This document shows, one piece after another, positions 527 through 11,005 of a DNA stretch of 11,788 bases. Position numbers and translations under genes: made by a program. How positions within the stretch are numbered: position 1 is the first letter of the stretch; each line of letters begins with the position of its first letter. The notes below the pieces were generated by a model. The model worked only from the letters and a program-made list of their open reading frames with translations, ran no database searches and was not told where the DNA came from. Source of the stretch: Terriglobales bacterium (lineage in GTDB: Bacteria > Acidobacteriota > Terriglobia > Terriglobales > Acidobacteriaceae). The stretch lies in the NCBI GenBank assembly GCA_015655365.1, contig JAATFE010000321.1:1-11788 (forward strand). The letters run 5' to 3'.

Positions 527-679
527 CTAGGTCATTGACCAATTGATTTTGTACCTTGGGTTCGTGCTATCCCAGGTCTCAAAAGCGAGACCTCCACCCC
601 ACGGACGAAAACCTATCCGTGGGGACCCCAGACCTGGGGCACCCAGCGATGGTACGAATTCATGCAGTCAAAGACCTAG
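527..679 (+). repeat. Palindromic intergenic element, copy 1 (long form)
   Basis: This is one of four related elements in the window. The outer arms are CTAGGTCATTGACC at 527-540 and its near-complement ending in GACCTAG at 679, with two mismatches in the first 14 positions. Next comes GTACC (551-555) facing GGTAC (651-655). The inner stem is CCCAGGTCTC (571-580) facing GAGACCT (587-593). This copy carries the extra 42-bp module at 594-635, which has its own perfect 9-bp hairpin CCCCACGGA/TCCGTGGGG and ends by repeating GACCT. The element ends 28 bp before the methyltransferase ATG and so lies in its leader. There is no transposase or open frame inside. It could be a MITE-like element or a structured RNA element. 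Confidence 0.9.
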
Positions 680-707
680 AAGCCTGATGTAATGAAAACT
701 AAACCGG

Positions 708-1316
708 ATGACGATGGAACAAAAGCACGCCTTCTTCAATCAGATAGCTCCTTCGTGGGATCAGATACAGCGCGGGCCGCAGATCGCGCCGGGCATCCGT
801 AACTTTGTGCAATGCGCCTATCTTGACGGGGCAAAAAGCATTCTCGACGTAGGCTGCGGAACGGGTATTCTTGTGCCTTCGCTGCTCGCCTCTTATCCGC
901 GCACCAGGCCCATCATCGAACTCGACTTTGCCGAAGAGATGCTAAGGCACAACCGCGCCAAATTCCACCATCGCCGGCTAGTTCGGCTGGCCTGCGACGC
1001 GACGAACCTGCCTCTGCCGGACGAGTCCATCGACCTGGTTCTCTGCTTCAACACCGCGCCGCACCTGGGCTCCGGAGAAGCGGCATTTCGCGAACTGTTT
1101 CGCGTGCTGGCGCCGGGCGGAGTCATCGCCGCAGGGCACCTGATGAGCAGCGCGGAGTTGAATCGCTTCCATGCCAATCTGCACGGCTCGATTGCGCACG
1201 ACCACCTGCCGCCCGCAAAGGAACTGGGCGCGGTGTTTTCCCATCTTGGCGGTAAAGACGTCATGACGCAGGAGCAGCCGGGCTGGTACTTTGTCCGCGC
1301 CAACAAGCCGGAATAA
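708..1316 (+). CDS. Class I SAM-dependent methyltransferase
   Basis: This 202-residue soluble protein is probably a small-molecule or unspecified SAM-dependent methyltransferase. It has the Rossmann-type order of the class I family: an N-terminal cap with FFNQIAPSWDQ (9-19), glycine-rich motif I ILDVGCGTGIL (45-55), an acidic residue after strand 2 in IELDFAEEML (70-79), an aspartate after strand 3 in LACDATNLPLP (94-104), the strand-4 segment SIDLVLCFNTAPHL (107-120), and the motif FRVLAPGGVI (131-140). The substrate cannot be read from the sequence. The ATG at 708 is followed by another in-frame ATG at 714, and the ribosome binding site is weak for both, so the start could be two codons later. 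Repeat copy 1 ends just upstream. The stop lies only 10 bp from the convergent lacI-type gene, leaving no room for a separate terminator. Confidence 0.88.
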   Translation: MTMEQKHAFFNQIAPSWDQIQRGPQIAPGIRNFVQCAYLDGAKSILDVGCGTGILVPSLLASYPRTRPIIELDFAEEMLRHNRAKFHHRRLVRLACDATNLPLPDESIDLVLCFNTAPHLGSGEAAFRELFRVLAPGGVIAAGHLMSSAELNRFHANLHGSIAHDHLPPAKELGAVFSHLGGKDVMTQEQPGWYFVRANKPE

Positions 1317-1326
1317 CTCGCAGCAG

Positions 1327-2448
1327 TTACTTGTTCCGCTTCGTCGCTGCGCCTTTGCGCTTGCCCGCGTTGCGCTCCACCAGCGCCGGCAATGTGCCGC
1401 GCGGGAAGGCTGAGGACTGACGCACCACCAGTTGGGTCGGAATGTGCCACTCGGTCTGGGCGGCCTTGGGATGGTCCGACTCAATGCCGGCACGCAATGC
1501 CTCAACGGCGGCGGCGGCCAGATGCTTGCACGACATTTGCACCGTGGTCAGCGGCGGCAGCATGAACTGGGCCAGGTGAATGTCGTCAAATCCAACCACC
1601 GAAATGTCTTCCGGGACTTTGTGCGTGGTCCGGTAGAGGGCATGAAGAACGCCGATGGCGGTCATGTCGTTGGAGCAAAGCACCGCCGTAGGAAGCTCGG
1701 CAAGCCCGGTCAAATGCTCCATCGCCGCCATGCCACCCTCCATGGTGTGGTTGCCCTCTACCATGTGCTCAGGAGGAACGATCTGGCCTAACTCGGCCAT
1801 GGACTTGAGAAATGCGTCGCGCCGCGCCACGGCAGAGCGCAGGCGCAGCGGTCCGCTGATGAAGGCGATGTGACGATGACCGAGCGCGGCCAGATGTTGT
1901 ACCGCCTGGCGAATTCCCTCGGCATAGTTCACCTTGAGGACGCGAATATTGGGCAGGGCGGGACCGGCATCCACAAAAACCAGCGGGAACTCGCGCTCCA
2001 CAAGCTTCTGGACCAGATCCTCTTCGATGCCGAAGGTCATCACCGCCACGCCGTCCACATTGCGCTGCAACATGCGGCGGATCAGCGACTCGGTGCGGAC
2101 CGGCTCATAGTTGGTGGAACCGATCAGCACTTCATAGCCCTGCGCCACGGCAAGATTCTCAAATTCCTGCACCAGCTCGGGGAAAAAGGGGTTGGTGATC
2201 TCCGAGACAATGAGTCCCAACATGCGGCTGCGGCCGGAGACCAGCGCGCGCGCCTGGGTATTGGGCACGTAGCCCACTTCTTCAATCGCCTTCCACACCC
2301 GGCGCGCCAGCTCGGCATCGACGGTGGCGATGTGGTTCACCACACGAGAGACAGTGGCGATGGAAACACCGGCGCGGCTGGCCACGTCGCGGATGTTGAC
2401 GGTCCCGGACCGCCGCTGATCGGAAGAGTTGTTTCTGGAAGCGCTCAC
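1327..2448 (-). CDS. LacI-family transcriptional regulator
   Basis: This is a sugar- or metabolite-responsive repressor of the LacI/GalR family (373 residues, slightly longer than the usual 330-350). The helix-turn-helix is at about 17-38 (VNIRDVASRAGVSIATVSRV), followed by the hinge at about 62-74 (PNTQARALVSGRS). A periplasmic-binding-protein-like effector domain fills about 76-345, with landmarks LGLIVSEITNPFFPELV, VDGVAVMTFG, HRHIAFISGP, TAVLCSNDMTAIGVL and ISVVGFDDI. A basic tail (RNAGKRKGAATKRNK) ends the protein. The start is GTG, chosen because it is the first start codon ahead of the DNA-binding domain; no good ribosome binding site is visible. The target genes are not identifiable here because no sugar-use gene is adjacent. 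Nested palindromes just upstream may be an autoregulatory site. Confidence 0.93.
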   Translation of the reverse strand: MSASRNNSSDQRRSGTVNIRDVASRAGVSIATVSRVVNHIATVDAELARRVWKAIEEVGYVPNTQARALVSGRSRMLGLIVSEITNPFFPELVQEFENLAVAQGYEVLIGSTNYEPVRTESLIRRMLQRNVDGVAVMTFGIEEDLVQKLVEREFPLVFVDAGPALPNIRVLKVNYAEGIRQAVQHLAALGHRHIAFISGPLRLRSAVARRDAFLKSMAELGQIVPPEHMVEGNHTMEGGMAAMEHLTGLAELPTAVLCSNDMTAIGVLHALYRTTHKVPEDISVVGFDDIHLAQFMLPPLTTVQMSCKHLAAAAVEALRAGIESDHPKAAQTEWHIPTQLVVRQSSAFPRGTLPALVERNAGKRKGAATKRNK

Positions 2449-2985
2449 TGGTGAAAATGATAATACGCTTTCCTGTTGTTTCTCACATGCATTTCATGCA
2501 AAAAGGAAAGCGCAAGATCTCTGGAACCTGTATTTTGCATGATTTCCTCCCGGGATTGTCTTCGCGCAGGAGTCAAAGGAGAAAGGCACGCGATGCGCGG
2601 CTTCAGAAATCGTTTCCTAGCCTTCGGACTCAAACCGATGGAACTCCCGGAGTAATACGATTTAGGAATGCGTCTTCGCCTAGGCATTCCCGCGGCAAGC
2701 CGACTATTTTCCGCTGGCCAGCAACAATATCGAGATGACGGCCTTGAAGTCCTGGGGGAGGCAGTTTCAGGGCGAGGGCATAGGCCACCTCCGCATGAGA
2801 TTTCTCGCGCCAAAGGCCGATCATCTGCTTGAGGAGAAAAGTGAACGAGAGGCGCGTTTCAGGGAGGGTGAGGTCGCTGGTGGCAATGACCAGGGCGCGC
2901 GGGCAGCGGTGAGAGTACCGCTGGGTGGTCGTAGCCACTGCGCCCGACGATGGGGCCAGCGTGAAACAGAGACCACCAGCGGCGC
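2449..2985. other. 537-bp gap without a convincing gene
   Basis: Short frames exist on both strands here, but none has recognisable domains, a good start context or a convincing amino-acid pattern. Two structures stand out: the nested palindromes at 2466-2512, and a hairpin with a 7-bp stem GGAATGC (2665-2671) facing GCATTCC (2684-2690) with a 12-base loop and no T run after it. The stretch holds the lacI leader and the 3' flank of the Crp-type gene. It may also contain decayed coding sequence. Confidence 0.5.
2466..2512. promoter_or_regulatory. Nested inverted repeats upstream of lacI-type gene
   Basis: A perfect 8-bp inverted repeat, CGCTTTCC (2466-2473) and GGAAAGCG (2505-2512), encloses a second one, TGCAT-TTC-ATGCA (2488-2500). 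The pair starts 18 bp upstream of the GTG of the LacI-family gene, where an autorepressor operator or a leader hairpin could sit. A third TGCAT occurs at about 2537. The inner palindrome lacks the central CG typical of LacI/GalR operators, so the assignment is only a suggestion. Confidence 0.35.
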
Positions 2986-3696
2986 TTACGCTACGGACGC
3001 AATCGACGACCCTTCGGAGTTCTCTTCGGGCAGTTGATCGAGCAGGACCACATTGAGCAACGACTTGTGCACCTGGATGCGGCCGTCGTAATCGATAAAA
3101 CCGAGTTTCCGAAAGCGGTTCATAAAAAAGCTGACGCGGGAACGCGTAGTTCCGATCATCTCCGCCAGGGTTTCCTGCGTAACGGGTGGAATGAGGGCAT
3201 CCGATTCGCCAGGCCTTCCAAATTCCGCCATTAAAAGAAGAATTCGCGCCAAACGCTTTTCACTGGAATTGAAAAGCTGATCGACAAGGTCGGCCTGGGC
3301 TCGCATGCTTCGGGCCAGCAAAAATCTCAAGAAGAGGTCGGCAAACCCCGGTTCGCTATGGATTACGCGGATCATTTCGTTCCTCGTAATCTCGAGTGCG
3401 GCGCAGGTATTCACAGCCGTCGCAGACGCCATGCGCAATCCAGGTACCGAAGCGAGGGACTCCTCTCCGACAAACTCTCCTGCTGAAAAGAGAGTGATAG
3501 TGGCCTCTTTGCCGTTGTGCGAAACCACCGTGAGTCTTGCGCGTCCACTCTGAAGATAGAAGACAGAGTCCGCAGGATCACCTTGACTGAAAAACGCCTG
3601 CTTCGGCTTCACTTCAAGAAGTCTTCGACCGAGACCTGCATGCGCAAGAAAGGCCGCAGGGTCGAACGTCGAGTTGTTCGTACCGGTTGCTGACAT
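2986..3696 (-). CDS. Crp/Fnr-family transcriptional regulator
   Basis: This 236-residue regulator has an N-terminal cyclic-nucleotide-binding-type beta barrel (about 20-120), including the phosphate-cassette-like GEFVGEESLASVPGLRMASATA (73-94). A long dimer helix follows (about 122-145), then a C-terminal winged helix-turn-helix (about 170-212) with PPVTQETLAEMIGTTRSRVS and FFMNRFRKLGFIDYDG. It has a single cysteine (C98), so it cannot bind an FNR-type Fe-S cluster; an effector such as a nucleotide, or none, is possible. The ATG is well supported by GGAGG in the leader about 6 bases upstream. Repeat copy 2 and a 244-bp gap separate it from the kai-operon response regulator on the same strand, and nothing shows co-transcription. 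Its targets are unknown. Confidence 0.93.
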   Translation of the reverse strand: MSATGTNNSTFDPAAFLAHAGLGRRLLEVKPKQAFFSQGDPADSVFYLQSGRARLTVVSHNGKEATITLFSAGEFVGEESLASVPGLRMASATAVNTCAALEITRNEMIRVIHSEPGFADLFLRFLLARSMRAQADLVDQLFNSSEKRLARILLLMAEFGRPGESDALIPPVTQETLAEMIGTTRSRVSFFMNRFRKLGFIDYDGRIQVHKSLLNVVLLDQLPEENSEGSSIASVA

Positions 3697-3940
3697 GGAA
3701 CCTCCTTCAAGGCGGTTTCCAACCGGGTGTGGGCTGCGGCGGGAGAATCAAAGACCATAGGCGAGTGAAATAACTCCACGCGCAGCTACACTTTTGTAGC
3801 CTTCTCGTAGTGTGCGGCAATTGGAATATCCCAACTATCGGGGATGTTACTAAAAATGGAAGGAGTTGTCCGGATAAACCCTGACAAGAGGCGCTTGTGC
3901 ACTCTATAACTGGCCAGCATTCCGCTCCCGACTTGAAGCG
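3697..3940. other. Leader region of the Crp-type gene
   Basis: These 244 bases lie between the Crp-type start and repeat copy 2. They contain a strong Shine-Dalgarno sequence next to the gene and the palindrome described separately at 3785-3800. No reading frame is convincing, and I could not place a clear -35/-10 pair. Confidence 0.45.
3785..3800. promoter_or_regulatory. Palindrome GCTACA-N4-TGTAGC upstream of crp-type gene
   Basis: A perfect 6-bp inverted repeat with a 4-base spacer lies about 90 bp before the Crp-type start codon. The 16-bp symmetric layout has the size expected for a dimeric regulator site, possibly autoregulatory. It does not match the FNR or CRP consensus, so binding by the adjacent gene product is a guess. 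Confidence 0.35.
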
Positions 3941-4092
3941 CTAGGTCTCTGACCGGATGATTTAGTACCTTGAGTTCGTGCTCTCCCAGGTCTCAGAAGC
4001 GAGACCTCCACCCCACGGACGGAAACCTATCCGTGGGGACCCCAGACCTGGGGCGCCCAAGCTGGTACAACTTCAAGCGATCAGAGACCTAG
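3941..4092 (+). repeat. Palindromic intergenic element, copy 2 (long form)
   Basis: This copy has outer arms CTAGGTCTCTGACCG and, reading the other strand, CTAGGTCTCTGATCG: 14 of 15 positions match, and the one difference forms a wobble pair. The inner stem CCCAGGTCTC faces GAGACCT. The 42-bp extension carries the hairpin CCCCACGGA/TCCGTGGGG, as in copy 1. The right end overlaps the stop codon of the response regulator: bases 4089-4091 are the complement of TAG. The element therefore forms the immediate 3' untranslated region of the kai operon, where it could act as a terminator or a stability structure on the minus-strand transcript. Confidence 0.92.
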
Positions 4093-4793
4093 TGGGCCGA
4101 GGTGCCCGGTTCACTCTCCAGCGACTCCGGGGTCAGTAGTCCCATCTGAACGGCAAAGCGGACGACATCGCTACGCGTGCGAAACCCAAGCTTTTCGGTC
4201 AAGCGTAATCGGTAGGTCTCGATTGTTTTCACGCCTACAAACAGTTGACTGGCAATTTCCGCGCTGGTGTATCCGCGCGCCACAAGTCTGAGAACCTGCA
4301 GTTCGCGGGGACTAAGAAAGCGCGATGGTCGTGCTGGACCGGCTCTCGCACTGCTCTTGGCCAGCACATCCTGTACAAGAACGCTCGCCAAACGCGGATC
4401 CACGTAGATTCCTCCGCGATGCACCGCTCGTATGGCGGCAATCAGTTCTGTATCCACAGCCCTCTTGAGCAGGTAACCGGAGGCTCCGGCAGCCAGTGCC
4501 GATCTCAGGTATGCGGGATCGTCGTGCATGGTGAGGACAAGCAACCGGATCTCGCTGCAATCGCGCGCCAACTGTTGCAACGCCTTCATGCCGCCGCCCC
4601 GCGGCATGGTGAGGTCCAGCAAGACCACATCCGGCCTTATCTGCTTTGCTGTCCGAACCGCCTTTTCTCCGTCGTCGGCCTCCGAGACAATCTCCATATC
4701 GGCCTGGGCATCGATCAGCATTCTTAATCCTGCGCGGAGAATCGCGTGATCGTCTGCAATCATTACTCTGATCTTGTGGTTTCGCGCCGGCAT
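4089..4793 (-). CDS. NarL/FixJ-type response regulator of the kai operon
   Basis: This is a cytoplasmic DNA-binding response regulator (234 residues), almost certainly the partner of the kinase encoded just upstream. The receiver domain (about 7-125) has the acidic pair D14/D15, phospho-acceptor D60 in VVLLDLTMP, T88 in LLVLTMHDD and K110 in GYLLKRA, so all the usual phosphorylation residues are present. The LuxR/NarL helix-turn-helix lies at about 157-217 (LSPRELQVLRLVARGYTSAEI, then VKTIETYRLRLTEKLG). The gap to the kinase stop is 13 bp and contains AGGAG, which supports both the ATG start and translation from one operon mRNA. The TAG stop lies inside the terminal CTAG of repeat copy 2. Its target promoters are unknown. 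Confidence 0.95.
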   Translation of the reverse strand: MPARNHKIRVMIADDHAILRAGLRMLIDAQADMEIVSEADDGEKAVRTAKQIRPDVVLLDLTMPRGGGMKALQQLARDCSEIRLLVLTMHDDPAYLRSALAAGASGYLLKRAVDTELIAAIRAVHRGGIYVDPRLASVLVQDVLAKSSARAGPARPSRFLSPRELQVLRLVARGYTSAEIASQLFVGVKTIETYRLRLTEKLGFRTRSDVVRFAVQMGLLTPESLESEPGTSAH

Positions 4794-4806
4794 TTCGAGT
4801 GCTCCT

Positions 4807-6114
4807 CTATCCCGCTAAGGGCTCACTGTCCCGGTTGAGAAGCGGGACGTGCACCAGCATTCTAGTTCCCTTGCGCTGGGGAATGAACCGAATCGTCCCC
4901 CCCAGCATAGCCGCTCTCTCGCGCATACTCTGAATCCCCAGGCGGTGGGAGGAAACAGCTACGGCCTCAGCGTCAAAGCCGCATCCGTCGTCGATGACCG
5001 AGACCTCAACGGCCATGGCTAAGCAGGCGAGTCGAATGCTGACCTTCTTGGCCCCGGAATGCCTCGCCACGTTGGTCAGGGCTTCTTGAAGGATGCGATA
5101 CAACGTGATCTGGACCCCCGACGGCAGGCTATTGGACTGATTTTCATCGAGCCTTAGATCTACCGCTATTTTGTGACTCTCGGTGTAGTCATTGACGTAG
5201 CGACCCAGTGCAACACCCAAACCGTGGTCGTCCAGCACCGTTGGGTGAAGTCCGCGAGCGAGGCGGCCGACCTCGTCGATGGCCTGCCCTGCTATTTCTC
5301 GCAATCGGCGTCCCTGTTCCCTGGCAACTGCCAGTTCCCGAACATCATCGAGGCTGCGCAGGCCGACCAAGAGAGCTGTCAGCAACTGGCCGGCTTCATC
5401 ATGCAACTCGCGGGCAATCCAGCGCCGCTCCTCCTCTTGCGCCGAGAGTGTGCGCTCCAGCAGGAGCCGGTGCAACGCATCGGCCTGCTTGACCTCCTCG
5501 GCCTGTTTGCGTTTTTGCTCACTCAAATTGGTGACGACCATGCCCAGAGCCTGACCTTTGAATCCGCGAAACCTATTCAGAGAAAAATAGACCGGAGTCA
5601 GACTACCTTCCTTAGAACGCAAACTGAATTCGCCTTTCATGAACGCCTTTCGAGCATTCTTGAGCAGCGCTTCGAATCTGTCCTGCTCTGCTTCCACAAC
5701 CAGCGACTGGAACACGGTTCCGAGAATTTTCCCGGAAGGTCTGCCCATCATTTGTGCAAACCCTCGATTGCAGTAGAGCACGGTACCATCTCGCGACAGG
5801 ATCGCCGCGCCTTCGCTCATGGCCTCGACTAACAATCGATAAGCGGGCTCACCGCCTTTCAGAGTTACTACCTGCTCCCCGCGACGGCCGGACACCATCA
5901 AAGCATCCACTTCGCCAGACTGTATGGCACGAAGAGTTTCCTCGGCAGTCTTCAGCCGAGCGCGGAGCTTGGAATACGGATCGGCAGGCGTGGACGCCGG
6001 AGATTTGCGTTGAGCAGTTTTTGGACTTTTACGAGTCTTCTGCGGCGCATTGGTTTTGCCGCGCAGCCCTCCTTGGAGAGCTCGGACATCGGAATGCGTT
6101 CGTTTGTTGGACAT
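4807..6114 (-). CDS. Soluble PAS-domain histidine kinase (HisKA_3/NarX-type core)
   Basis: This 435-residue kinase would autophosphorylate and pass phosphate to the NarL-type regulator encoded next. No membrane segment is seen, so it is cytoplasmic. A basic tail (about 1-45, with KTRKSPKTAQRKSP) is followed by a segment containing LRAIQSGEVDALMV (61-74) and then a PAS domain (about 88-205). A coiled linker leads to the HisKA_3 dimerisation helix, with phospho-accepting H238 in ARELHDEAGQ. The HATPase_c domain (about 333-427) has the N box around N348 (LQEALTNVARHS), the G1 box DDGCGF (375-380) and a glycine-rich GGTIRF/GTRM region. The kinase starts 20 bp after kaiB stops; a GAGG overlaps the kaiB stop codon but is rather far from the ATG. 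Its place behind kaiBC suggests that it reads the KaiC state, in the manner of SasA, although it lacks a KaiB-like N-terminal domain. Confidence 0.94.
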   Translation of the reverse strand: MSNKRTHSDVRALQGGLRGKTNAPQKTRKSPKTAQRKSPASTPADPYSKLRARLKTAEETLRAIQSGEVDALMVSGRRGEQVVTLKGGEPAYRLLVEAMSEGAAILSRDGTVLYCNRGFAQMMGRPSGKILGTVFQSLVVEAEQDRFEALLKNARKAFMKGEFSLRSKEGSLTPVYFSLNRFRGFKGQALGMVVTNLSEQKRKQAEEVKQADALHRLLLERTLSAQEEERRWIARELHDEAGQLLTALLVGLRSLDDVRELAVAREQGRRLREIAGQAIDEVGRLARGLHPTVLDDHGLGVALGRYVNDYTESHKIAVDLRLDENQSNSLPSGVQITLYRILQEALTNVARHSGAKKVSIRLACLAMAVEVSVIDDGCGFDAEAVAVSSHRLGIQSMRERAAMLGGTIRFIPQRKGTRMLVHVPLLNRDSEPLAG

Positions 6115-6134
6115 CTAGTTTTTGAGACCTTACC

Positions 6135-6488
6135 TCAGCGTGCTGGTTGAAGATCCAGACCCACAAGAACGCTCTCTGTCTTCGAGAGGTTCCCAATGAT
6201 TCTTTTGACTGGTGGCGGGAGCCTTCTCACCAGGGTCGGGATGGCGATGATCTGATCGCCTTTGGCGAGTTGCGGCTTCTCAAGCAAGTCGACCACTTCG
6301 ATGCGGTATTTGCCTTTCAGCTTCTCCTCGCAGATCTTTTTTAGGTTGGCGATTGCAGTAATCGAGTTAGGGGTTTGGCCCGCGATGTAAAGCCGCAGCC
6401 GGTAGAAATCGTTCGCGTCGGCCTTTGCCGCGCTCTTCTTTGTGGCATTTCTCTTCGCGGGGCTCTTCTTTGCCGGAATCTTCTCCAT
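6135..6488 (-). CDS. kaiB: Circadian-clock-type protein KaiB
   Basis: KaiB is a small thioredoxin-like, fold-switching protein that binds the KaiC ring and, in cyanobacteria, drives the dephosphorylation phase of the clock. The core is at about 28-115: first strand [19 protein letters not shown] (28-46), helix [11 protein letters not shown], second strand [15 protein letters not shown], and the conserved proline segment [14 protein letters not shown] (80-93), ending with [17 protein letters not shown]. At 117 residues it exceeds the usual size of about 100 because of a Lys/Ala/Pro-rich tail (1-26). A GGAGA sequence about 6 bases before the ATG supports the start. It is separated from kaiC by repeat copy 3 and a small 6-bp-stem hairpin (TCTGGC at 6503, GCCAGA at 6517), which is unusual within an operon. 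Confidence 0.95.
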
Positions 6489-6529
6489 GTCGGCTCTCCG
6501 TCTCTGGCCTGAATCAGCCAGACTTGCAA

Positions 6530-6640
6530 CTAGGTCTTTGACCGGATGATTCTGTACCTTGGGTTCGTGCTTTCCCCGGTCCCAAAAGCGGGACCGGGGG
6601 CACCCAGTGCTGGTACCGCTTCATGCGGTCAAAGACCTAG
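6530..6640 (+). repeat. Palindromic intergenic element, copy 3 (short form, within kai operon)
   Basis: This is the most symmetric copy. Its outer arms CTAGGTCTTTGACCG and their complement are perfect over 15 bp. Next come ATGA (facing TCAT) and GTACC/GGTAC, and then the perfect 10-bp inner stem CCCCGGTCCC and GGGACCGGGG with loop AAAAGC. Relative to the other copies the inner stem has two changed base pairs, each compensated on the opposite arm. The 42-bp extension is absent. The right end overlaps the kaiC stop (6637-6639 is the complement of TAG), and the left end lies 41 bp upstream of the kaiB start, so the element fills the kaiC-kaiB junction. On the operon mRNA it would form a strong hairpin that could terminate, attenuate or process the transcript. 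Confidence 0.93.
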
Positions 6641-8127
6641 CTTGCCGCAACCGCACTTGGGCCTTCAACCGCCGAGGCCAGAAGGTGATCCTTCAGCACG
6701 AGGCCCAACTCCAGGCCCTTCTTGCTCACGATTAACTCGCGCGCCTCGCGCGAATGGGCCATGCCGCGGGATTTCAAAACGTAAAGCTCACGTCGCGGCC
6801 GCCCATTGGGTTTGCTGTCCCGCAACACAATCCAGGTATCCATGAGGGAAGAAACAGCCGCCGCAGTCCTCTCCTGCGGGTCTCCTGCGAAGGTCAGATT
6901 TGTGAAAATCGATGTGATCTGTTGCATTTTCAGGAAATCGACCAAGCGCACAAGCATCGATTTAATGTCATAGCTGCCGGATGCCGAAACCAAGTTCGTA
7001 ATCGGGTCGATGACCACAACGCTCGGTCGTATCTGAGAAATCAGTCTGTGAATCACGGCCAAATGCCCTTCCAGGCCAGTGCTGGTTGGGCGCATTGCAT
7101 TGAAATGCAACAGGCCTTTCTTCATCCATGGCTCCAAGTTAAGACCAACCGAGCGCATGTTGCGGAGAATCTGACTGGGAGACTCTTCAAAGGTAAAATA
7201 AAGGCACTTTTCGCCGCGGGCGCAGGAGGCGCTGGAAAAATTCGCGACCAGACTGGACTTTCCTGTGCCCGCTGTGCCGGTCACCAGTACGCTGCTTCCG
7301 CGGAAAAATCCCTTGCCCTCCATCATCTCGTCCAAGCTGGCGATGCCGGTCGAAACCCGGTCTCTTAGAGCTTTGTGATTGAGCACGAGAGACGTGATGG
7401 GCACCACCGAAATGCCCTCTTCATCGATCAGGAACGGATATTCATCGGTGCCGTGGGAAGTGCCCCGGTACTTGACGATACGCAACCGCCGGGTGGAAAT
7501 CTGATCCGAAACCCGATGGTCCAGCGAGATGACGCAATCGGCGACGTATTCCTCCAACCCGTGGCGGGTTAACGTATCGCTTCCGGCTTCTCCGGTAACA
7601 ATCGCAGTGAGCTTCTGGTCTTCTAGCCAACGGAACAGACGGCTGAGTTCAGAGCGCAATATCGCTGAGTCGACGATTCCGGAAAAGAGCGCCTCAACGC
7701 TGTCAAGAACAACGCGCTTCGCCTTGATTGCTTTGACAGCATGGGCCAATCGGATGAACAGACCATCGAGATTGTATTCTCCGGTTTCGGCAATCTGGTT
7801 TCGTTCAATGGAAACGAAATCCACTAACAGCTTTTTGCGTTTGGAAAGATCGCGTAAATCGAAACCCAGCGATGCGACGTTGGCCGTCAGTTTCTCCTCG
7901 GTTTCTTCGAAATTCATGCAGACACCAGGCTCGCCGTATTCAACCGCGCCATGCACCAGAAATTCCATGCCGAGCAAGCTCTTGCCACAGCCTGCGCGGC
8001 CACACACCAGCGTGACTCGGCCTTTTGGCAGCCCCCCGCCTGTGACTTCATCCAGCCCCTGGATCCCAGTCGGGACCTTGGCGAGCGAGGTGCGAACAAC
8101 TTTTGGCTTTGGCTTGGCGGCAGGCAT
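6637..8127 (-). CDS. kaiC: Circadian-clock-type ATPase/kinase KaiC
   Basis: KaiC is a double-RecA-domain ATPase that forms hexamers and, in cyanobacteria, keeps time by autophosphorylation. This 496-residue protein has both domains. CI (about 14-245) has Walker A GRAGCGKS (43-50) and the catalytic pair in FEETEE (E74/E75). CII (about 255-480) has Walker A GTAGTGKS (284-291), FEES (E314/E315) and Walker B VVVIDP (D374). By alignment, the cyanobacterial phosphosites S431/T432 correspond to S426/S427 in AVSSLMDT. The C-terminus is shorter than in the 519-residue Synechococcus protein, consistent with the absence of KaiA. GGGAG 7-8 bases upstream supports the ATG. The TAG stop is contributed by repeat copy 3. 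It heads a co-directional group with kaiB, the kinase and the regulator. Whether it oscillates cannot be read from the sequence. Confidence 0.97.
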   Translation of the reverse strand: MPAAKPKPKVVRTSLAKVPTGIQGLDEVTGGGLPKGRVTLVCGRAGCGKSLLGMEFLVHGAVEYGEPGVCMNFEETEEKLTANVASLGFDLRDLSKRKKLLVDFVSIERNQIAETGEYNLDGLFIRLAHAVKAIKAKRVVLDSVEALFSGIVDSAILRSELSRLFRWLEDQKLTAIVTGEAGSDTLTRHGLEEYVADCVISLDHRVSDQISTRRLRIVKYRGTSHGTDEYPFLIDEEGISVVPITSLVLNHKALRDRVSTGIASLDEMMEGKGFFRGSSVLVTGTAGTGKSSLVANFSSASCARGEKCLYFTFEESPSQILRNMRSVGLNLEPWMKKGLLHFNAMRPTSTGLEGHLAVIHRLISQIRPSVVVIDPITNLVSASGSYDIKSMLVRLVDFLKMQQITSIFTNLTFAGDPQERTAAAVSSLMDTWIVLRDSKPNGRPRRELYVLKSRGMAHSREARELIVSKKGLELGLVLKDHLLASAVEGPSAVAAS

Positions 8128-8415
8128 GGCTCAACTCCCGAGATTAAGGTTGGTGCGGCTGGGTGTGAATCGCCGGCCAGATCATAGCACGCCGCCTTTC
8201 CTTGCGCCAATGCAATAACGCACAGTTCCCTGCTCGCTCGCAGGTCGATGAGAGCCGTTCCAGTTATGGACAATTACATGGATGAGCGAACTGCGAACAT
8301 GCTGCCCATTTCCGATTCAAGCAAGAAAGCCTGTTTTTTTCGGACCCGATCACAAAGGAATACAATCCGCGGCAGCCGCTTCCCTGTGCTGAAAATTCGT
8401 GTCATGGACACACAC
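8128..8415. other. kaiC leader and promoter region
   Basis: This 288-bp gap lies between the 3' end of the MarC-type gene and kaiC. It holds the putative kaiC promoter and ribosome binding site. No frame looks like a real protein, and I see no strong T-tailed terminator after the MarC-type gene. Confidence 0.5.
8181..8210 (-). promoter_or_regulatory. Candidate sigma-70-type promoter of the kai operon
   Basis: On the minus strand, TTGGCG (complement of 8205-8210) is followed after 18 bases by TATGAT (complement of 8181-8186). These match the -35 (TTGACA) at four of six positions and the -10 (TATAAT) at five of six. A start about 7 bases further would give a leader of roughly 46 nt with GGGAG before kaiC. 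This is a by-eye call without statistical support. Confidence 0.4.
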
Positions 8416-9099
8416 TCACGGCCTCATTAATTCTGCAAGGAGCACGGCAAGCCCATTCCATGCAATCTGGACACCAATGCAGAGCAGAATGAACGCAATG
8501 ACCCGCAGGATTCCATGCGCAGTGGACGGAGGGATGACCTTTGAGATCTTGGGTGCATACGCGTAGCAGAAATAGACGAGCACGCTGAGGACAACTACGG
8601 CGAGAAACACTCCGACATGGGCCAGAATGTCTCTCGAAATGACGCGATTCGAGATATGGGCGGTGAGCGTCAAGAGAGCAACGAGTGTGCCAGGCCCCGA
8701 GGTTACCGGGAAAGTGAAGGGGTAAAATGCCTTCTGGTCGAGATCTTCCTTTCGCGTCTCGCTGCGCACTTCGGTCTCTTCCTGCTTGTTTCTGGAATTC
8801 GCACTTGCATCCCTTTCGTTCAACACCGACCAGCCCATTGCTGCGATGACGATGCCGCCCGAGAGTTGGACTATGGGCAGAGAGATGCCGAAGAAATTGA
8901 GGATGGCTGCGCCCACCAGCTCAATAATCGCCAGAAAAACTATGTTATCGATGGCGATTCTGCGCGCCAATGAGCGATAGACTTGGGGAGGCGCTTCGCC
9001 GACCAGTCCGAGAAAAACCAGCGCCGACCCGAGCGGATTGATCAGCGGAAGAAGCACGCTGAAGGCAAGCAAGAAGGAGTTCCAGAGTTGCAAGACCAT
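8416..9099 (-). CDS. MarC-family integral membrane protein
   Basis: This polytopic inner-membrane protein belongs to the MarC (UPF0056) family; its transport role, if any, is not established. The sequence shows about six hydrophobic segments. Three come early (SFLLAFSVLLPLINPLGSALVF; IVFLAIIELVGAAILNFFGI; LSGGIVIAAMGWSVL). A charged cytoplasm-like loop rich in E, K and R follows, then the family landmark FPVTSGPGTLVALLTL and two further membrane spans near the end. The PLINPLGSA motif close to the N-terminus is characteristic. I place the start at the ATG at 9099 (227 residues), giving a normal family length. A GTG at 9171 would add 24 polar residues and overlap the BON gene. The GGGAG beside this ATG is very close to it, so initiation is not certain. 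Confidence 0.88.
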   Translation of the reverse strand: MVLQLWNSFLLAFSVLLPLINPLGSALVFLGLVGEAPPQVYRSLARRIAIDNIVFLAIIELVGAAILNFFGISLPIVQLSGGIVIAAMGWSVLNERDASANSRNKQEETEVRSETRKEDLDQKAFYPFTFPVTSGPGTLVALLTLTAHISNRVISRDILAHVGVFLAVVVLSVLVYFCYAYAPKISKVIPPSTAHGILRVIAFILLCIGVQIAWNGLAVLLAELMRP

Positions 9100-9133
9100 C
9101 TCCCTGCGAGAGCCTAATTGAGGACCGCGGTCC

Positions 9134-9400
9134 CTACTGCGCTGAACTGGACTTGTTGTGTTTGACGGCACGCAGGGCGTTCACTACCTGCCTCACGTTC
9201 GGCACAGTGGATGCAACCTTCTCAGCGCCTGTGCGCCGGTGCTCCGAATTCACATCCCCAGATAGAGTGACGACGCCGTTCTTTACGGCGTAATTCACGT
9301 TATCGTGCAGATGGTTTTGGATCAGCGCGGCATCGAGATTCTTCTCGATGCCCTGGTCCAGATCGGAGTTCACCGCTTTTGCTTCGACTCCCCGGCCCAA
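9134..9400 (-). CDS. BON-domain protein, downstream part of a frame-broken gene
   Basis: BON domains are small alpha/beta modules found in periplasmic or envelope stress proteins such as OsmY and thought to bind phospholipids. This 88-residue frame has one BON domain: DLDQGIEKNLDAALI, DNVNYAVKNGVVTLSGDVNSEHRR, and AEKVASTVPNVRQVVNALR. The only start codon at its 5' end is TTG with no ribosome binding site; GTG at 9373 is an alternative. Both look artificial because matching coding sequence continues upstream in another frame (see the next entry). Removing one G from the GGGG run at 9390-9393 joins the two into a continuous protein of about 112 residues with a sensible ATG at 9473. The frame is therefore a broken gene or contains a sequencing error. 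It lies 34 bp before the MarC-family start. Confidence 0.75.
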   Translation of the reverse strand: MGRGVEAKAVNSDLDQGIEKNLDAALIQNHLHDNVNYAVKNGVVTLSGDVNSEHRRTGAEKVASTVPNVRQVVNALRAVKHNKSSSAQ

Positions 9401-9473
9401 AGTGGATCACAGCGACCTGATCCGCGACGACCTGTGAGCCAGCGAGCGACCTGGCCAGCGCTTCGAGCACCAT
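9390..9473 (-). pseudogene. Displaced 5' part of the BON-domain gene
   Basis: From an ATG at 9473 this frame reads MVLEALARSLAGSQVV and then ADQVAVIHFGPG, which looks like natural protein. Beyond that it loses sense and must shift frame by one base to join the BON-domain sequence (VEAKAVNSDLD onward). The break falls in a four-base homopolymer (CCCC on the plus strand at 9390-9393). Upstream of the ATG the frame stays open for only about 15 codons before a TGA. Confidence 0.6.
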
Positions 9474-9523
9474 TGTGGCTTTTCTATTCGCAATCGAATC
9501 GGGCGACCTGACGAGTCCCGATC

Positions 9524-9549
9524 AGCGCCGATAGGCCACAATTGGCGCT
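9524..9549. terminator. Weak hairpin between lmo0937-type and BON genes
   Basis: AGCGCC (9524-9529) and GGCGCT (9544-9549) form a perfect 6-bp stem with a 14-base loop, starting 11 bp after the stop of the small membrane protein on the minus strand. There is no T run after it, so it is at most a weak terminator or an mRNA 3'-end structure. Confidence 0.25.
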
Positions 9550-9560
9550 ATTTCTCCGGT

Positions 9561-9707
9561 TCAGAGACCCCGCCGGCCGGTTACCAGGTTGAAGACCAAG
9601 ATAATTACCGCAATCACCAGTAGGAGATGAATCAGACCACCGGCAACATGGAAGGTGAAGCCCAATAGCCACAACACCAGGATGATGACAAAGATCGTCC
9701 AGAGCAT
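9561..9707 (-). CDS. lmo0937-type small membrane protein
   Basis: This very short protein (48 residues) is almost entirely two hydrophobic helices: LWTIFVIILVLWLLGFTF, then a turn with HVAGG, then LIHLLLVIAVIILVFNLV, ending with the basic cap TGRRGL. This is the pattern of the small lmo0937-type family of bacterial membrane proteins, whose function is not established. The ATG at 9707 is preceded by AGGGAG about 8 bases upstream, which strongly favours this start over longer versions. The gene lies between the SYLF gene and the BON gene on the same strand, in an envelope-stress-like neighbourhood. Confidence 0.82.
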   Translation of the reverse strand: MLWTIFVIILVLWLLGFTFHVAGGLIHLLLVIAVIILVFNLVTGRRGL

Positions 9708-9786
9708 ATGCACACTCCCTGAATGTTTGTGGCGCCCGAGCCCTGACAGCGGTTGCGGACGCCACAAAAGATTCGAAACCAACTAA

Positions 9787-10479
9787 CTAGTTGGATGCTT
9801 TGGCCTCTGATTTGGCTTCCCGGACTGCATCGATGAACGCATGTGCCGAGGCAGGCGACGGAATTTCGCCCAACAGAACGCGGCGTGTGGAGATATCGTG
9901 CCCGTAGTAGGCATCCATGGAATCGTCGTCCCGGCGCAGATTGGCTCCGGTCAGTGTAAGTCCAGCAAAGGCGCCCTTGGCCCGCGAGTAGGTCAGGACC
10001 TCGGTATCAAGCTTCCAATCCGTATTGGCGGAAGCATGGCGTCCGACCGGTCCGGCTGCCGCGGAGGCATCCGCACCAAGCTGAAACTTGCTGGCGAGCA
10101 GATGTTGCATTCCTTTGTCGCCCTGGAAGATCATGACCAGATCCACGCCTTCGACGCCAATCTGCAATCCCCAGTTTCCGCCCGTAATAGCAAAAAACGC
10201 TGGCGCGCTCCAGCCGTGTGCTGTGCGGCAAGTTGCCAAGCCACGGCCATTCTCTCCGCCAAACACGAAGCCGGCCTTGATCATGCGTGGCACGACCGCT
10301 ACGCACTTTGCGTGATCGAATACATCATCCGGAATGCCTTTATCCGGAGTGGCCATGATCTCGTGCAGTACCGTAGCTGCACTTTCCAGCCGGTTCTGCG
10401 TTTCTTCGCGGGTCTCGGCCCAGGCGGCGCTAGCCGCACCCAAGCTGAACAATGCTACTAACGTCACAAGCTTCTTCAT
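9787..10479 (-). CDS. Secreted lipid-binding SYLF-domain (YSC84/DUF500) protein
   Basis: SYLF-domain proteins bind phospholipids; bacterial ones are usually exported. This 230-residue protein starts with a signal peptide MKKLVTLVALFSLGAASA with probable cleavage after AWA (residue 21). It continues with a helical segment (ETREETQNRLESAATVLHEIM) and the SYLF core: CVAVVPRMIKAGFVFGGENGRG, WSAPAFFAITGGNWGLQIG, VDLVMIFQGDKGMQHLL, and TYSRAKGAFAGLTLTGANL ahead of DDDSMDAYYG. The ATG at 10479 is chosen because it begins the signal peptide and has AGGTGAG 5 bases before it; an extension to 10530 would put a charged stretch before the signal. It lies upstream of the lmo0937-type gene with a 79-bp gap, so co-transcription is possible. 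Confidence 0.92.
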   Translation of the reverse strand: MKKLVTLVALFSLGAASAAWAETREETQNRLESAATVLHEIMATPDKGIPDDVFDHAKCVAVVPRMIKAGFVFGGENGRGLATCRTAHGWSAPAFFAITGGNWGLQIGVEGVDLVMIFQGDKGMQHLLASKFQLGADASAAAGPVGRHASANTDWKLDTEVLTYSRAKGAFAGLTLTGANLRRDDDSMDAYYGHDISTRRVLLGEIPSPASAHAFIDAVREAKSEAKASN

Positions 10480-10656
10480 GCATCTCACCTTTTTTCTACC
10501 TATGCGCGGCGTCTCTCGCTTTACGCGCACTTGAGGCGCACAAGGTAGTTCTCACATTAGAGCGACTACCTCACGCCGTCTGAGCAATAACGCTCAAGTG
10601 AAATGGGTCTCCCATCCGACATAAGAGGATGCCCTTTCCTTGGCCGCGCTGAATGA
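10480..10656. promoter_or_regulatory. SYLF gene leader with two inverted repeats
   Basis: The leader holds two perfect inverted repeats: AGGTAGT (10543-10549) facing ACTACCT (10565-10571), and TGAGC-N6-GCTCA (10581-10596). The second has the size and spacing of a dimeric regulator site. I could not place a confident -35/-10 pair. No gene is seen here. Confidence 0.3.
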
Positions 10657-10765
10657 CTAGGTCTTTGACCGGATGATTTAGTACCTTGGGTTCGTGCTAT
10701 CCCAGGTCTCAGAAGCGAGACCTGGGGCACCCAAGCTGGTACAACTTTAAGCGGTCAGAGACCTA
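10657..10765 (+). repeat. Palindromic intergenic element, copy 4 (short form)
   Basis: This copy has CTAGGTCTTTGACCG at its left end and, read on the other strand, TTAGGTCTCTGACCG at its right end. The terminal CTAG is therefore changed to CTAA on the right, and one arm position is a T facing a G, which pairs as a wobble in RNA. The inner stem CCCAGGTCTC/GAGACCTGGG is perfect over 10 bp with loop AGAAGC. It lacks the 42-bp extension. It lies between the divergent SYLF (-) and response regulator (+) genes, 240 bp from the latter. Confidence 0.92.
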
Positions 10766-11005
10766 ACTGGCGCGTAACGGGCAGGACGATATTCGCTGGA
10801 CCAGGTTTTGCAATGTGAAACGAACGCCTCTCCGCAACCATTTGGCAGCGACCACGGCGACCGCTCTGTCTTCGTGCATTTATGAAAGTGACACAAAACG
10901 CGCCAATAAGGTTCCAACAACTCTGTGCGAAATTGAACAGATTCGTAGTTTGATCCATGGAAGACTTTCTCTAATCCTCTTAAGGAAGCTGTTAACGGGT
11001 GAGAT
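10766..11005. other. Leader region of the single-domain response regulator
   Basis: These 240 bases contain a Shine-Dalgarno-like GGGTGAG just before the regulator ATG. A short plus-strand frame at 10815-11039 overlaps that start and looks accidental. No confident promoter or hairpin was found. Confidence 0.4.

Follow-up and report, generated by a model that had tools for sequence, protein, structure and literature searches.

A high-copy family of REP-type elements in soil Acidobacteriaceae, oriented with GC skew in several relatives and probably spread by RAYT transposases

Introduction

The stretch of DNA analysed here (11,788 nt of contig JAATFE010000321.1, assembly GCA_015655365.1, from a Terriglobales bacterium; hereafter, the window) contains four long palindromic elements, all reading the same way. 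What are these elements, how did they reach their sites, and why do they share one orientation? We find that soil Acidobacteriaceae harbour a large family of small mobile DNA elements to which these four belong. We examine their structure, their distribution in relatives, the transposase genes that the same repeat flanks, and their orientation relative to GC skew.

Structure of the four elements

Full-length alignment placed all four elements (E1–E4, Table 1) on the plus strand at the positions given by the first-pass annotation, except that E4 proved to extend one nucleotide beyond the reported 10765. The inverted ends, the GTACC/GGTAC inner pair, and the 10-bp central stem described there were all recovered. 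The copies can be aligned end to end, with sharp CTAG-type ends, and they occupy intergenic positions, as checked for these four. A 42-bp insert with a second hairpin is present in E1 and E2 and absent from E3 and E4, and, at the loci scanned in the same genome, this extra hairpin lay inside elements in 10/10 distinct copies.

Table 1. Coordinates of the elements, their cores, and adjacent open reading frames in the window
Feature	Coordinates	Strand	Description
Element E1	527..679	+	153 bp; arms, REP core, and 42-bp insert with extra hairpin
E1 REP core	571..644	+	Stem interrupted by the 42-bp insert, plus GCACCC tail
E1 internal extra hairpin	597..624	+	CCCCACGGA...TCCGTGGGG
Element E2	3941..4092	+	152 bp; arms, REP core, and 42-bp insert with extra hairpin
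E2 REP core	3985..4058	+	Stem interrupted by the 42-bp insert, plus GCGCCC tail
ORF next to E2	4089..4793	-	Response-regulator-like (on sight); TAG stop within E2 terminal CTAG (4089-4092)
Element E3	6530..6640	+	111 bp; arms and REP core
E3 REP core	6574..6605	+	Hairpin plus GCACCC tail
ORF next to E3	6637..8127	-	KaiC-like (on sight); TAG stop within E3 terminal CTAG (6637-6640)
Element E4	10657..10766	+	110 bp; arms and REP core; right end CTAA
E4 REP core	10701..10732	+	Hairpin plus GCACCC tail

Folding with DNA parameters (on both strands for E3 and E4) yielded z-scores of -6.4 to -8.9, and E1 and E4 folded as RNA gave -7.5 and -7.9; an Rfam search of the window returned no family at the gathering score. 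Among 23 aligned copies, 97.0% of paired cells were retained as pairs against 95.6% after shuffling, and double-change cells numbered 11 against 3.7, 8 of the 11 falling at a single pair. One further measure is weak: the count of 3 pairs with double changes was reached by 34/500 shuffles.

Copy number and dispersal

The shared core, CCCAGGTCTC-loop-GAGACCTGGGGCACCC, occurs as an exact pattern at 80 sites in the window MAG, which is 67% complete, compared to 0 for a reversed-pattern control. The number of copies is thus far above four, bearing out the earlier suggestion of a high-copy family. A blastn search of this MAG with E4, in which 40 of 127 candidates were scored, returned at least 47 matches at E≤0.001; in some cases two matches are parts of a single element, and three weak matches reflect the palindrome matching itself. 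Matches to the family were present in 25/25 same-genus genomes of a first sample, and no match to the core pattern at up to 3 mismatches was detected in G043, a single-contig genome of the same genus. In relatives, the core is also dispersed without the arms.

The elements show clear signs of mobility. E2 and E3 are missing at the orthologous sites in 6/6 syntenic relatives, the outcome for which the first-pass annotation proposed to test, and similar copies occupy unrelated flanks. Strong folding, together with the location of two copies next to gene ends, could have suggested immobile structured elements, such as terminators or RNA elements, inherited vertically. We consider this very improbable because the absences of E2 and E3 at orthologous sites contradict vertical inheritance; the unrelated flanks of similar copies and the overall lack of any relation to gene direction (see below) also count against it.

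No target duplication other than CTAG was found in 32 full-length copies, whose flanks are near-random. The left and right end 4-mers matched 12 times against 12.0 expected, a weak comparison given that CTAG is also the consensus, and CTAG as a duplication is indistinguishable here from CTAG as a target preference. At one locus (L019), two tandem copies have a single CTAG in common, and in genomes G017 and G019 the arms enclose a different hairpin stem. Combined with the inverted 14-15-bp ends and the CTAG at each end, these two arrangements fit a classical MITE of a DDE transposase (for example, IS630/Tc1-like), in which TA or CTAG would be the target that is duplicated and the arms would serve as terminal inverted repeats. 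Such an origin is nevertheless quite unlikely: apart from the chance-level agreement of the end 4-mers, the core without arms is dispersed in relatives, where it flanks RAYT genes, and a MITE predicts no orientation bias.

Association of the core with RAYT genes

At 5 of the 20 Y1 loci fetched, the core flanks a Y1-transposase gene as an inverted pair (G014:C141, G002, G005, G004, and G001:C13), the right-hand copy in G005 having a tail one base shorter. All five core-flanked proteins exceed the cut-off of NCBIfam REP_Tyr_transpos (NF047646), which was passed by 6 of the 8 proteins submitted in total, the sixth being encoded at G003:C286, where no core adjoins the gene. The G005 protein matches TnpArep (4er8, E 4.8e-9), and the motif is EHVH in four of the core-flanked proteins and DHVH in one.

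In the window MAG, again at 67% completeness, none of the 4 Y1 matches is a core-flanked RAYT: two are complete and of IS200 type, and two are broken or cut fragments. Only one of the four, on C268, has the core nearby, with a degenerate copy about 270 bp away and another 2 kb away. The search covered Y1 transposases. A transposase gene that matches the repeat, of the kind the first-pass annotation proposed to look for, exists in five relatives, as a RAYT between inverted cores, and was not seen in the window MAG itself. That annotation gave two possibilities, a REP-like structured element or a MITE mobilised in trans. Its general proposal agrees with the high copy number, with the empty orthologous sites of relatives, and with the presence there of a transposase, with the qualification that the enzyme is a RAYT and not a DDE transposase. 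Because the transposase is an HUH Y1 RAYT rather than a DDE enzyme acting on terminal inverted repeats, and because there is no duplication beyond CTAG, the better reading is that of a REP-type element, moved in trans by a RAYT and set, in the window genome, within longer inverted arms (110-153 bp). The foot of the hairpin reads GGGTGC, which does not fit the GT[AG]G tetranucleotide; some G004 copies carry GGGTGG instead and with it GTGG.

Orientation of the elements relative to GC skew

The common orientation, which the first-pass annotation observed and left unexplained, is the most informative feature of the elements. In the window MAG, orientation is coherent on 9/9 contigs with at least two exact core sites and on 11/11 multi-copy contigs retrieved in full or almost in full (26 elements). 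In sampled 20-kb stretches, the G-rich strand is the one that carries the element in 25/25 cases in G009, 38/39 in G001, and 16/19 in G005. G004 has little polarity (24/34 by skew), and its skew is weak. These stretches were selected around sites already identified, ahead of any skew calculation, and cover 25/30, 39/87, 19/27, and 34/99 of the sites, respectively. At named loci, a set that includes contigs of these four genomes and thus overlaps with the preceding data, 107/124 elements in all 106 stretches follow the same rule, as do 72/80 of the listed loci and 41/47 assemblies by mean. Within the window MAG, orientation agrees with skew sign on only 23/40 contigs and on 14/17 with |skew| above 0.05, and for loci no longer than about 3 kb agreement is 33/65, the same copy being sometimes counted twice. 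In a sample of E. coli REPs, no orientation bias was found (9 versus 9).

The skew itself is a property of the strand: the sign of GC3 skew is the same for plus and minus genes in 19/20 stretches of G009, 18/20 of G001, and 12/14 of G005. Gene direction overall does not predict element orientation (60/124). Protein genes in G009 favour the C-rich strand (r=-0.52), and the elements oppose the local gene majority, lying on the majority strand in 4/25 cases in G009 and 9/37 in G001. The tRNA genes are on the G-rich strand in 11/11 cases across five stretches of G009 and G001 but only in 10/16 elsewhere.

Agreement between neighbouring copies is significant in G001 only (45/57 versus 30.4 shuffled) and not in G009 (12/20), G005 (13/21), or G004 (44/78 versus 38.7 shuffled, with 93 of 99 sites). 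Merging same-orientation copies less than 1 kb apart changes the counts from 30 to 29, 27 to 26, 93 to 91, and 87 to 72, indicating that most copies are outside close doublets. We located dnaA in 6/6 genomes; the stretches on both sides of it have the same skew sign in G001 and G005. In G002, a single contig, the sign flips many times over 20 skew samples, and its 20 core sites resolve no arcs.

Polarity of this kind could also be kept by selection on a strand-marking or fork-related site, of which Chi and KOPS are examples, with real mobility followed by loss of misoriented copies. Polarity is near-absolute among the copies sampled from G009 and G001 and is just as strong when they carry 1-3 mismatches (11/11 and 14/14, respectively) as when they are exact (14/14 and 24/25), which such a process could produce. 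However, the site looks dispensable because all six syntenic relatives lack E2 and E3, G004 and G000 retain the family without strong skew agreement, and G043 has no match to the core at up to 3 mismatches; furthermore, one copy of each pair around a RAYT gene breaks the orientation rule because the pairs are inverted. We therefore regard selection as an unlikely source of the polarity.

A model of replication-coupled spread

The explanation that we favour, and hold to be probable, is that these are non-autonomous REP-type elements spread in trans by an Acidobacteriaceae RAYT (REP-associated tyrosine transposase, an HUH Y1 nuclease), with orientation set at replication. Under this model, the hairpin core would be the substrate of the RAYT, which would copy or move the element in trans to intergenic sites, here often CTAG; in the window lineage, the REP lies within longer inverted arms that would spread along with it. 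Y1 enzymes of this kind act on single-stranded DNA, which is asymmetrically exposed at forks. New copies would therefore insert with a fixed polarity relative to replication, and the shared orientation of the four elements would follow. Copying by the RAYT on single-stranded DNA at the fork is thus the likely cause of the bias; catalysis on the core, movement at the fork, and identity of the G-rich strand with the leading strand are presumed in this account. Several results speak against the model: the window MAG yielded no core-flanked RAYT, G004 has little polarity, neighbour agreement is significant in one genome only, skew agreement in the window MAG is low, the tRNA genes follow the G-rich strand less well outside G009 and G001, and skew sign is the same on the two sides of dnaA in G001 and G005.

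The strand carrying the 5' foot (GGGTGC-hairpin) is the C-rich strand. In canonical REPs, the strand with the 5' foot is the active one. IS200/IS605 relatives, according to PMC6006769, use the lagging-strand template, in line with the model. If the 5'-foot strand is active in the present family, the placement is opposite to the simple IS608 expectation and tells against the model.

The stronger proposition, that replication direction fixes REP orientation almost absolutely, with RAYT-driven spread coupled to replication and REPs forming a record of fork polarity in Acidobacteriaceae, appears to us evenly balanced. The mechanism of REP spread is unsettled: RAYTs are the presumed agents, but the REPs of BIMEs, whose orientation alternates, carry no information on direction. 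With a REP family that is almost absolutely polarised in some genomes, the idea of replication coupling becomes directly testable, and, if the proposition is true, such a family would provide direct genomic evidence of this coupling. Where a genome has no clear origin, polarised REPs could also mark replication direction and inversions that occurred in the past.

Comparison with known systems

Like the family described here, IS200/IS605 elements (IS608, ISDra2) involve an HUH Y1 enzyme and no larger target duplication, and a single-stranded substrate and replication-linked insertion are the features to which we liken our model (PMC6006769, PMC2817692); those elements encode their own transposase, whereas ours are non-coding. 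The TIRtron/TIRYT elements of Acidobacteria (Di Nocera 2013, PMC3733652) likewise comprise Y1 transposases between long inverted repeats, some of them in repeat families. They are set apart by the shared motif GGGGWSAS, given for part of that family only, to which the core GGGGCACC does not conform, and how the repeats are oriented with respect to replication is not discussed in the passages of that article considered here. Class 3 TnpAY1 elements (Quentin 2018, PMC6006769) are also acidobacterial and high-copy, with about 600 atypical hairpins in Solibacter; their foot is CnGA and their motif NHVH, in contrast to GGGTGC and EHVH or DHVH here.

REP/RAYT systems (REPtrons and REPINs; E. coli TnpAREP, Pseudomonas and Stenotrophomonas REPs) share with the present family high-copy intergenic hairpins, a RAYT gene between inverted copies of the same repeat, the HUH motif, membership in NCBIfam REP_Tyr_transpos, and the lack of a visible target duplication. 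Published families without GT[AG]G include the CGTC repeats and the class 3 CnGA type. Compared with REP/RAYT systems, the acidobacterial family has, instead of a GTAG foot, a conserved GGGTGC (or GGGTGG) 5' of the hairpin, its copies are mostly outside close doublets, in the window genome the REP resides within inverted arms, and in several genomes the copies are strand-polarised.

Anatomy and copy number of the elements

The window is contig C272, one of the 528 contigs of a metagenome-assembled genome (MAG) that totals 2.42 Mb and is 67% complete. The four palindromic elements reported in it by the first-pass annotation are real, with one amendment, that E4 ends at 10766. In an alignment of the four, arms of the form CTAGGTC..TTGACC..TGATT..GTACC surround a core hairpin, and the copies that were folded far exceed shuffled sequences in stability.

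Features of the window
Feature	Position (strand)	Length	Description
E1	527-679 (+)	153 bp	arms and core, with the 3' side of the stem interrupted by an additional 42-bp insert containing a hairpin
E2	3941-4092 (+)	152 bp	arms and core, with the same kind of 42-bp insert as in E1
E3	6530-6640 (+)	111 bp	arms and core hairpin
E4	10657-10766 (+)	110 bp	arms and core hairpin
Neighboring ORFs	4089-8127		adjacent KaiB-like and KaiC-like ORFs, with sensor-kinase-like and response-regulator-like ORFs beside them (named on sight)

Across 23 aligned copies, 97.0% of cells pair, compared to 95.6% after shuffling. Double changes number 11 (3.7 after shuffling), and a single pair in the central stem accounts for 8 of them. 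In the 32 own-genome copies with both arms, information content drops to background beyond CTAG...CTAG, and no target duplication was seen outside CTAG. The hairpin of the 42-bp insert occurs 10 times in the own-genome loci scanned, each time within an element, and a different insert, CTTCGACAAGCTCAGGGCAGGCTC-like, occupies about the same place in the core stem of two other copies (loci L021 and L040). In two relatives, G017 and G019 (loci L344, L350, L355, L356), arms of a similar kind surround a different stem, CCACCCTTTCGCC...GGCGAAAGG; the stem is thus replaced within a retained frame.

Several individual arrangements were also observed. At L257, a string similar to CTTCGACAAGCTCAGGGCAGGCTC adjoins a core. 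Tandem copies at L019 (G000:C315) have one common CTAG between them, as if the end of one copy, its CTAG, had served as the insertion site of the next; the arrangement is less clear at L006 and L030, where the neighbor is a degenerate remnant. At L032 (G020:C303, ~1440-1680), degenerate CTACTAGCTA/AGCTAGGAGCT tandem repeats flank an element copy on both sides.

The high copy number initially proposed from the four copies was borne out: the exact core pattern has 80 sites in the MAG (47 forward, 33 reverse) compared to 0 for the control, and E4 as a blastn query gave at least 47 matches (40 of 127 candidates scored). In a first sample of relatives, the core was matched in 25/25 genomes of the same genus (own included) and 0/16 others; presence in the genus is not universal, because another same-genus genome, G043, has no match to a longer core pattern. 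Among the matches listed in a scan of named genomes are Acidobacteriaceae MAGs, Granulicella, Terracidiphilus, Occallatibacter and Acidicapsa. For the most part, the left arm is limited to the own genome, with 59 matches compared to 1-3 in each of five relatives, some few of these looking like chance (G019 also has one control match). Records under the labels Formivibrio, Syntrophobacteraceae, Planctomycetaceae and Rhodanobacteraceae (L082, L088, L094, L140) also contain exact core matches, perhaps as misbinned Acidobacterial contigs, or possibly through transfer.

Empty orthologous sites

Mobility, suggested in the first-pass annotation, is supported by orthologous sites for E2 and E3; among the matches listed, no synteny spans E1 or E4. 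In six relatives (G056, G061, G094, G073, G069, G055) the E2-E3 region lies on syntenic contigs, and both elements are absent in all six. Flanks were matched by blastn on both sides of the E2 site in 6/6 relatives and of the E3 site in 5/6, the contig of G069 stopping shortly past the E3 site, which the multiple alignment still spans. The alignment gap closes near the borders of E3; the exact border of E2 is unreadable in the relatives, the adjoining intergenic letters being poorly conserved. Parsimony favors E2 and E3 as insertions in the lineage of the window. The right end of E2 provides the TAG stop of the adjoining ORF, and E3 does likewise, which would fit insertion at CTAG sites already containing the stop codon.

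Orientation of the copies and GC skew

The element is asymmetric, and its strand is readable because both the loop (ARAAKC) and the tail (GCACCC) are. In the MAG, orientation is coherent in 9/9 contigs with at least two exact core sites and in 11/11 fetched contigs holding 26 elements (~3e-5 for independent strands, a figure that is too low, some pairs being tandem). Element orientation agrees with strand-specific GC skew: of the 80 listed loci from named genomes, 72 have the tail strand as the G-rich strand, as do 41/47 assemblies by mean and 33/34 where |skew| is at least 0.1. Agreement within single genomes was 25/25 in G009, 38/39 in G001, 16/19 in G005 (15/19 using a shorter core pattern) and 24/34 in G004, where skew is weak. 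In the MAG, 23/40 contigs agree, rising to 14/17 above |skew| 0.05 and 9/10 above 0.08.

Gene direction does not predict orientation (60/124 over all named loci), and elements oppose the local gene majority, lying on the majority strand in 4/25 cases in G009 and 9/37 in G001. In G009, G001 and G005, genes of both strands mostly share one skew sign, which intergenic skew tracks (r 0.95-0.96); therefore, skew there is no by-product of transcription. In G004, the two gene strands do not show this agreement. Of the REPs matched by a REP pattern in four 50-kb stretches of E. coli K-12, 9 were oriented with the leading strand, as placed from the origin position, and 9 against it.

The G-rich strand is described as the leading strand as a general rule (PMC8941118), and tRNAs lie on it in 11/11 cases in five stretches of G009 and G001 and in 10/16 in other sets. 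Against this assignment, protein genes in G009 lean to the opposite strand, and the stretches to either side of dnaA share one skew sign in both G001 and G005. Along the 1.7-Mb contig G009:C1, skew switches sign three times over ten sampled stretches, which suggests inversions moving elements and skew together. GC skew reaches 0.2 in 20-kb stretches of this contig (L252-L261) and also of G001:C16 (L286-L289), with both gene strands alike, suggestive of inversions or of an atypical layout of replication in these Acidobacteriaceae. We infer a link between element orientation and fork direction.

Associated transposases

Y1_Tnp genes were found in 25/26 genomes of the genus searched. At five of the 20 loci read (G014:C141, G002, G005, G004, G001:C13), inverted core copies stand at both gene ends, no more than ~70 bp from the ORF ends or overlapping them; the right-hand core in G005 has a complete stem and a tail shorter by one base. 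Two inverted REPs around the gene are the arrangement described as defining units of REPs and REP-associated tyrosine transposases (RAYTs) (PMC2817692). All five proteins score above the REP_Tyr_transpos cut-off, and that of G005 matches E. coli TnpArep 4er8. The G003:C286 protein also exceeds the cut-off, but without a core nearby. Thus, the transposase with matching ends anticipated for the family exists at five loci in relatives, whereas none was found in the MAG itself, whose two complete Y1 proteins are both of the IS200 type. The cognate RAYT may lie in the unassembled third of the genome, or the copies there may be relics.

Mechanism and comparison with known systems

The best account of these observations is that a RAYT spreads the REP on single-stranded DNA at the replication fork: acting on DNA exposed there, it would disseminate REP copies. 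Transposon orientation and the sliding clamp are reportedly the subject of one study cited in PMC6006769. IS200/IS605 enzymes are described as using the lagging-strand template (PMC6006769); should the G-rich strand be the leading one, that template would be the strand with the GCACCC tail. The foot of canonical REPs lies on the 5' side of the hairpin, and the single-stranded REP, not its inverse, is recognized by TnpAREP of E. coli (PMC8266576). By comparison, the foot-first strand of the Acidobacteriaceae element would be the one opposite the GCACCC-tail strand, which leaves two candidates for the active strand of the core.

Both REP-RAYT units and, in Acidobacteria, Y1 genes accompanied by inverted repeats have been described before (PMC3733652). 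Replication-strand polarity of a REP family was not found in the literature covered, most subscription papers lying outside the search. A nearby observation comes from Pseudomonas fluorescens, whose tandem REP arrays are reported as forward at about 2 Mbp and reverse at about 4 Mbp (PMC3116915).
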